This document shows positions 9,663 to 48,405 of a stretch of 64,000 nucleotides of DNA, in pieces. Under the pieces are notes generated by a model, which worked only from the letters and a program-made list of their open reading frames with translations, was not told the DNA's origin and ran no database searches. The position numbers and the translations under genes were made by a program. Source of the stretch: Coriobacteriales bacterium OH1046 (lineage in GTDB: Bacteria; Actinomycetota; Coriobacteriia; Coriobacteriales; Atopobiaceae); contig RQYE01000009.1 in NCBI GenBank assembly GCA_004010535.1, positions 32,001 through 96,000 of the forward strand, in the 5' to 3' direction. Positions within the stretch are counted from its first letter, which is position 1. Each line of letters opens with the position of its first letter.

Positions 9663-9760
9663 CCTTTCCACGAGCATCCCAGCCTAAGCACGAACATCCC
9701 GCAGGTGTTCATGAACATCCCGGGGATGATCGTGTTCGCGTGGGGATGTCCGTGGAAAGG
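9663..9760. repeat. Phased dyad array of five 12-bp units (consensus CACGAACATCCC), 3 direct then 2 inverted
   Basis: CACGAGCATCCC 9669; CACGAACATCCC 9689; CATGAACATCCC 9710; inverted GGGATGATCGTG 9723; inverted GGGATGTCCGTG 9743. Outer arms CCTTTCCACG/CGTGGAAAGG. Confidence 0.8.
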
Positions 9761-16452: not shown

Positions 16453-16555
16453 ATGGCACCAGATGGCCTCTATCCACACGAACTTGGCACCAGAAGACCA
16501 GCGCCACCCCCATGGATGGGAACATCCCGCTGCCAGGGGCTCGTCCCGGAAGAGG
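16453..16555. repeat. Degenerate intergenic dyad element with CCATGG centre
   Basis: TGGCACCAGATGGCCTCTATCCA ... TTGGCACCAGAAGACC ... CCCATGGATGGG ... inverted CTGCCAGG; resembles the 46.9/48.2 kb units. Confidence 0.4.
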
Positions 16556-46701: not shown

Positions 46702-46865
46702 CTAAGTCTCCTTTTTTCGGAACGCGAAAGCGCTGCACGTTTCGGATAACAGTGTAGCAGCACGCGGGTATGCGCTCGGGAAAAACAACCGGATGGATAG
46801 AATCGCCACCGGGCGCGATTGCGGCCGCCCGCTTCTCAGCATCGATGGGATGCCGCAAGAACCAT

Positions 46866-46983
46866 GGTACCAATCGGATACCTTCCAACAAATATAAGAG
46901 AAAAACCGGCACCAATCGAACTCCTTCCATGGAAAGATACCGATTGGTGGCCTTGAATCGTTGGAAAGATGCCAATTGGCACC
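46866..46983. repeat. Four-unit intergenic dyad element, copy 1; central hairpin with T-tract on minus strand
   Basis: GGTACCAATCGGATACCTTCCAAC 46866; GAAAAAC 46900; GGCACCAATCGAACTCCTTCCATGG 46908; CCATGGAAAGATACCGATTGGTGGC 46927; GTTGGAAAGATGCCAATTGGCACC 46960. Confidence 0.9.
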
Positions 46984-47042
46984 ATAGGTCACGTCGTGGG
47001 CCGCGCCGCGATTTTCCAACCCGAGCTCTGCGCTTTCCCAAA

Positions 47043-47960
47043 CTAGAACAACGACACGTGCCTCGTATTCACGAAACGGAGCAGCTTCTCGCGGGCTAAG
47101 ATGTTCTTCCCGCGTGGAACCCTCACCCGCAGACCGAGATGCCTGCCGATCAACCGCATCGCCTCGAATGAGAGTTTCCCATCTCTGAGCTCGCCATTTG
47201 TCACTTGGACGATCCGGTACCCCTTGTTTTCCAGTGAGGTCCGCCGCGCGGAATCATGCGAGATATCCGCCTCTTCCGAATGCAGCTCGTCGGAATCGTA
47301 CTCGACCCCCACGCGGGCGCGCGGGAACAGCAAATCGCACCTGCGTTCGGATGCGCCGACGCGCAATACCGTGTTCATCATCCCCAATGGGAGGCCATAT
47401 CCTCCGAGTCGATGCGGCAACCACGCGAGCATGGCGAGATCGGTCTCGCGAGGCGATGCGGAGCCATCGGCGACGTAATCGAGGAGTCCGAGAACACGGC
47501 CCGAGCTTTGGAATTCCCGGAGTTCCATCAGCTCCGTCCTCAGACCATCTCGATTTGCAAGAGGCTTATATGCGTGGAGGTAGTCGTTGACCCGATACGT
47601 CGCGCAAAGCTCGTAGAGGAAGCGGATGAGCCGGCGGTCATCCAGGGTGCGCGACATAAGCGCGACGCACAGGGCGACCGAGGCAACGCCGACGCCCGAC
47701 TTGACGAGTTGGACGGAAGCGGGTGGCAGCGGGGTGGTGCACACGTGCGAGATAATCCCGCCGACGGCTTTCCGCTCTCCTTTCGAGGGTACGATGACGT
47801 GCAGGTCCCCCAAGGTTTCGCGCGCCGATGCGACATCAAGCCGAGCAAGGTCGGCTTCGCCGAGCGACGGGAGGATGCGCCCGGATACCCGGCAGGGCTT
47901 CAGCGACCGAGCGAACCGGTCGTGAAGGCGAAGGGCGGATATATCGCAGATGATGACCAT
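47043..47960 (-). CDS. DUF559/Vsr-like endonuclease-fold protein, possibly with AbiEi-like N-terminal region
   Basis: CDLLFPRARVGVEYDSDELHSEEADISHDSARRTSLENKGYRIVQVTNGEL resembles the PD-(D/E)XK core of DUF559 proteins; start MVIICDISALRLHDRF is a guess. Confidence 0.6.
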   Translation of the reverse strand: MVIICDISALRLHDRFARSLKPCRVSGRILPSLGEADLARLDVASARETLGDLHVIVPSKGERKAVGGIISHVCTTPLPPASVQLVKSGVGVASVALCVALMSRTLDDRRLIRFLYELCATYRVNDYLHAYKPLANRDGLRTELMELREFQSSGRVLGLLDYVADGSASPRETDLAMLAWLPHRLGGYGLPLGMMNTVLRVGASERRCDLLFPRARVGVEYDSDELHSEEADISHDSARRTSLENKGYRIVQVTNGELRDGKLSFEAMRLIGRHLGLRVRVPRGKNILAREKLLRFVNTRHVSLF

Positions 47961-48210
47961 GGTCCCTGCACGATAGCACCGATAGCCCATCCTTCTCCCC
48001 CGGTATCCTGTCCACACCGACCGATAGCCGCCTGCTGGCTGACGGGTACCTCTACCTGCACGCGCAAAAATGAGAGGAGCGGGAGGTTGGCCTGCAATCA
48101 CACGTCTTCGATGGTCTGCGGAAGCGGTGGAAGGGGCGGGCATGGAAAACTGTGGTGTTTCTCGGGAGGATCATGATGGGGCGAGAACCCGATCCACGCC
48201 CTATGGCCAT

Positions 48211-48338
48211 GGCGCCGGTTTGCATCTTTCCAACGGATACGGACGAAAAACTGGTGCCAATCGAGTTCCTTCCATGGAAAGATGCTGATTGGCGCCAATT
48301 CATGCCCGATTATCCTTGGAATGAGGGCAATCGGTACC
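48211..48338. repeat. Four-unit intergenic dyad element, copy 2
   Basis: GGCGCCGGTTTGCATCTTTCCAAC 48211; GAAAAAC 48245; GGTGCCAATCGAGTTCCTTCCATGG 48253; CCATGGAAAGATGCTGATTGGCGCC 48272; CCTTGGAATGAGGGCAATCGGTACC 48314. Confidence 0.9.
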
Positions 48339-48405
48339 ATCGCCTCAGAAGGGCGGGAACCCGCCCCGACGAGATCGCATGCGCCGCCCTCGCGTACATC
48401 CGCGC

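Follow-up and report, generated by a model that had tools for sequence, protein, structure and literature searches.

In the genome of Coriobacteriales bacterium OH1046 a gene for a 305-amino-acid nuclease lies between two copies of a palindromic element, e1 and e2, each built from four short units in phased order. Both copies are located in a 64,000-nucleotide stretch of contig RQYE01000009.1 (assembly GCA_004010535.1, positions 32,001 to 96,000), here called the window. We regard it as probable that e1 and e2 are copies of a dispersed mobile dyad, some 120 bp long and found on both sides of its cognate nuclease gene, in a system resembling the repetitive extragenic palindromes (REP) and their REP-associated tyrosine transposases (RAYT), here with a nuclease of the Vsr/EDxHD type. 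The element is associated with the nuclease gene and it is mobile. A preliminary description of the window had recognised the two copies, which are real, but had missed both the intervening nuclease gene and the mobility of the element.

A phased four-unit element

Each element consists of four 22-bp units of the pattern GGYRCC-N11-TTCCA, oriented > > < <, with start-to-start spacings of 42/22/32 bp in e1 and 42/22/42 bp in e2. The features are as follows (positions in the window):

46866..46887, plus strand (>): e1 unit 1, GGTACCAATCGGATACCTTCCA
46908..46929, plus strand (>): e1 unit 2, GGCACCAATCGAACTCCTTCCA, starting 42 bp from unit 1
46930..46951, minus strand (<): e1 unit 3, adjoining unit 2 at CCATGG
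46962..46983, minus strand (<): e1 unit 4, 32 bp from unit 3
48211..48232, plus strand (>): e2 unit 1
48253..48274, plus strand (>): e2 unit 2, 42 bp from unit 1
48275..48296, minus strand (<): e2 unit 3
48317..48338, minus strand (<): e2 unit 4, 42 bp from unit 3
47043..47960, minus strand: 305-amino-acid nuclease gene between e1 and e2, assigned by PF18741, a paralogue, invariant residues and the match to 3r3p
approx. 46811..48400, no strand: cassette of e1, nuclease gene and e2, delimited by blastn synteny and sequence comparison with the related genome G001

The two four-unit dyads, their spacings and the meeting of the inner units at CCATGG are thereby confirmed as first described. Of the unit consensus given at that time, the ends GGYRCC and TTCCA are conserved throughout the family, but the 11 bp between them vary by subfamily and the unit is 22 bp long. 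The linker ending in GAAAAAC is present in both window copies, but is common to those two only and not a feature of the family. With up to three mismatches allowed, the 22-bp unit pattern has 3 matches in the window versus 0.00 in shuffled sequence.

The genome (2,377,509 bp in 19 contigs, all but 151 bases scanned) was searched for four units with free spacings of 22-65, 20-49 and 22-65 bp, and the reversed genome served as control. Further copies with clustered spacings, as expected in the preliminary description, are indeed present: eight elements score 32.0-38.8, at C18:78866 (e1), C18:80211 (e2), C1:79150, C1:80399, C12:34917, C12:260753, C2:99237 and C1:204530. Since the maximum of the reversed genome, 31.4, lies below all eight, chance is ruled out as their source. 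The 16 outer spacings take only the values 31, 32 and 42 bp; at the centre, seven copies have 22 bp and one has 33 bp. The spacings thus differ in steps of about one helical turn, and the separate changes from 42 to 31, from 42 to 32 and from 22 to 33 bp all retain the helical phase, in copies that have a common ancestry and are not independent of one another. The linker sequences drift freely, and the N11 segment falls into two subfamilies. A GAACAT-unit family of the same genome, unrelated in sequence, is also four-unit phased: its direct spacings measure 20/21 and 41/42 bp, its inverted ones 12, 32/33, 53 and 73 bp. Yet another family consists of paired palindromes 94-96 bp apart.

Whole-turn changes of spacing together with drifting linkers, seen likewise in the second family, favour the earlier proposal of a protein bound to one face of the DNA over a simple hairpin. 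It is very unlikely that the elements are RNA structures, such as a long hairpin in the 3' untranslated region or a terminator-like structure, transcribed with the neighbouring genes. The minus strands of e1, e2 and locus L4 are predicted to fold strongly (z −6.5 to −8.4) and better than the plus strands, and all three sit 58-68 nt past stop codons on that strand; however, inverted protein-binding sites fold too, and L5 folds better on the opposite strand. Nor are G-U versus A-C mismatches significantly lopsided (p 0.06-1), the linkers vary by whole helical turns only, and no Rfam family matches the elements. A plain hairpin or RNA element was therefore rejected, being unsupported by folding, wobble asymmetry or Rfam.

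There are weaker matches as well. At window positions 16455-16510 (C18:48455) there is a degenerate partial copy in which two units lie in direct orientation at a distance of 31 bp (GGCACCAGATGGCCTCTATCCA); its right half is broken and its score is below the control maximum. A weak match to the GAACAT-unit family, whose nuclease locus is C2:231151, is found at 9688-9732 of the window (C18:41688-41732). The weak match C2:4290 (L019) is a different hairpin and not a copy of the family. A search of other genera for the window element type (model R1) gave only single weak matches, in G001 and G007.

The nuclease and the repeats around its homologues

The 305-amino-acid product matches Pfam PF18741 (REase_MTES_1575) with an E-value of 1e-5, under the curated cut-off. 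Its N-terminal region, judged by eye, is AbiEi-C-like, and its catalytic domain is Vsr/EDxHD-like and related to MTES_1575/DUF559. An alignment of 27 homologues has nine invariant residues, E172, D209, E220 and H227 among them, which we take to be the acidic/His set expected of a Vsr/EDxHD-like site. The AlphaFold model has a mean pLDDT of 92, and its best match in the PDB by foldseek is the catalytic domain of I-Bth0305I (3r3p; probability 1.00, TM 0.64 on the target, E 0.09). The profile of the nuclease family retrieves I-Bth0305I by sequence as well (E 2.6e-4). I-Bth0305I is a homing endonuclease which, according to a review (PMC3943268), acts as a dimer on a DNA target almost 60 bp long. 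PADLOC gave no match to a defence system, and NCBIfam no usable name for the nuclease.

A paralogue with 63% identity is encoded at C1:79295-80209 and is bracketed by the elements at C1:79150 and C1:80399, which share 96% identity and lie in inverted orientation. Both paralogues being bracketed by element pairs, each has its own element subfamily. The pair is direct around the window gene and inverted at the C1 locus, which may be explained by the near-palindromic nature of the elements.

In related gut bacteria the same layout is found around other members of the nuclease family, which is common in this bacterial family, occurring in 116 of 140 genomes. When the left and right 800-bp flanks of 27 nuclease loci from Coriobacteriia were aligned, a repeat common to both flanks (score of at least 41) was found at 17 of them, versus 0 of 39 matched loci in related genomes (Fisher 3e-9). 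In OH1046 itself, 7 of 11 nuclease loci score at least 46, versus 25 of 1500 random intervals that score 40 or higher (3e-10). The flank repeats differ wholly in sequence from locus to locus; they are either palindromes or sets of inverted units in array. Each nuclease has a repeat family of its own, which also has solo copies in the same genome; in OH1046 such families occupy 28, 14, 10, 4 and 4 places. Genome G121 has more than 10 solo repeat loci with a nuclease at one only, and G105 has at least six solo copies. In G004, units recur at a spacing of 41 bp on the 3' side of the orthologue (54%). The orthologue of G017, an Olsenella (42%), lies between inverted-repeat elements. Among named organisms, Olsenella phocaeensis (NZ_LT635494.1) provides an example.

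The nuclease could also be a passenger that inserts into repeat-rich intergenic sites while another enzyme moves the repeats. We consider this unlikely. Different repeat families do adjoin in the same intergenic regions, and the genome encodes one Y1-type protein (C12:120707); but the repeats on the two sides of each nuclease belong to a single cognate family, and none of the 39 ordinary loci shows a flank pair. A Y1/RAYT system was rejected as the mover, the sole Y1 (HUH) gene (C12:120707-121033) being unlinked, with none of the elements found within 4 kb of it. Two families lie side by side at C1:74563/74694, C12:116132/116210, C12:171580/171844, C13:234069/234256 and C5:913/1071, which suggests common insertion hot spots.

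Empty sites and the proposed mode of spread

The relative G001, where the products of the flanking genes show 85-90% identity, is without the 1.59-kb cassette of e1, nuclease and e2 and has about 20 bp in its place. Solo elements are missing from its asd and YitT/tRNA sites as well. Unrelated palindromes stand in place of the element at serA and of the cassette at the second nuclease locus (L193); at the latter there are four of them, 22 bp each, arranged as an array, TGCGGTnATCGCGAATnCCGCA. G003 is likewise without the insertions, and the cassette site of G105 is empty in G107. No element is present at any of these empty sites, whether in G001, G003 or G107.

These comparisons also bear on a role of the units as multiplied operators of a transcription regulator, for example in autoregulation of the nuclease. 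Phased dyad sites are typical of operators, and the start codon of the nuclease gene lies about 250 bp downstream of e2. However, the element stands on both sides of the gene, and the cassettes are missing from relatives. Moreover, four of the eight copies are solo, without a nuclease gene, and lie in intergenic regions between unrelated genes, mostly close to or past gene 3' ends. Such a role is therefore improbable.

For a mobile dyad with its cognate nuclease the following mechanism can be proposed. A multimer of the nuclease would recognise the phased units along one DNA face and would then cut at or close to an element. New intergenic sites could then receive the cassette or the element by itself, either through repair from an element-nuclease-element template (homing by gene conversion) or through a reaction resembling transposition. 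It is tempting to speculate that this amounts to a separate, undescribed class of mobile DNA, in which the nuclease recognises the phased dyad, spreads solo copies and homes its own gene between copies, and in which enzyme and repeat co-diverge, with seven families here; this wider proposal is more tentative.

Several points weigh against these proposals. About one third of the nuclease loci are without a flank pair. Homing predicts sites that are solo in one genome and hold a full cassette in another, and no such site was found. A target-site duplication could not be defined at the sites compared; junctions and duplication are unreadable because the surrounding intergenic DNA has diverged. 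The match to 3r3p has a weak foldseek E-value (0.09), and the alignment covers the catalytic domain only. That the nuclease binds and cuts the element, and how the element spreads, is our inference.

In G105, the two nuclease-flanking copies L163:1053-1272 and L163:2341-2562 have extra bases in common to their left. At the first copy these bases take in the stop codon of an adjacent epimerase gene, as though element and flank together had undergone duplication in place.

Comparison with known mobile elements

As in REP/REPIN and RAYT systems (PMC3116915), the palindromes are extragenic, dispersed and mostly solo, copies flank the enzyme gene, and there is one enzyme gene per repeat family. Unlike there, the flanked gene encodes a PD-(D/E)XK/Vsr-like (MTES_1575/DUF559-like) nuclease and not an HUH Y1 protein; the only Y1 protein of the genome (Y1_Tnp) is unlinked to the elements. 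The elements are 80-230 bp long with several phased units, whereas REPs are palindromes of 20-40 bp. The units, with their GGYRCC-N11-TTCCA pattern and CCATGG centres, are not short palindromes with a tetranucleotide tag of the GTAG type, as in REP/RAYT; some of the other repeat families here contain GGTAG.

With the EDxHD homing endonuclease I-Bth0305I the nuclease has in common a catalytic domain that is related in both fold and profile and keeps the acidic and His residues, as well as a presumed selfish spread and long DNA target. A homing gene of this type interrupts its own target, which empty alleles carry intact, and its product cleaves site-specifically and so drives gene conversion. 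However, the gene described here is not in an intron or intein, it is flanked by two whole dyads and not by the halves of a cleaved site, and the N-terminal half of its product is unlike that of known homing enzymes. Like bacterial miniature inverted-repeat transposable elements and their parent transposons, short gene-less inverted-repeat elements are dispersed in intergenic DNA, and longer copies carry a gene between repeats. In contrast to those, the gene-bearing form has complete palindromic elements at both ends, there is no DDE or HUH transposase, and no target-site duplication was seen at sites whose boundaries have diverged. The palindromic element ends in GGCC-like arms.

Altogether, the layout suggests mobile DNA of a kind not yet described. 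Nucleases of the DUF559/MTES_1575 type are widespread in Actinomycetota, often with many copies per genome, and the sources found give no known job for them. We found no paper linking DUF559/MTES nucleases with palindromic repeats, in a search that mostly did not cover subscription journals and preprint servers. A nuclease tied to its own dispersed repeat family would give these proteins a concrete, testable role and REP-like repeats a second enzymatic route besides HUH transposases. The four-unit phased design renders multimer binding directly testable.

It should be mentioned that three different families, at L163:1053-1272, L174:1160-1333 and L157:1222-1342, have the core CTACCTGCGG(AAACG) in common. 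In L174 this core lies inside two interleaved complementary pairs, and a pseudoknot is possible. In OH1046 a very long, near-perfect inverted repeat at C14:147538-147700 (GGCGGGAAATGGCACGGAGGGCACTTATTCCGCAAGATTTG) adjoins a distant homologue of the nuclease and contains the unit-like GGCACGGAGGGCACTTATTCCG.
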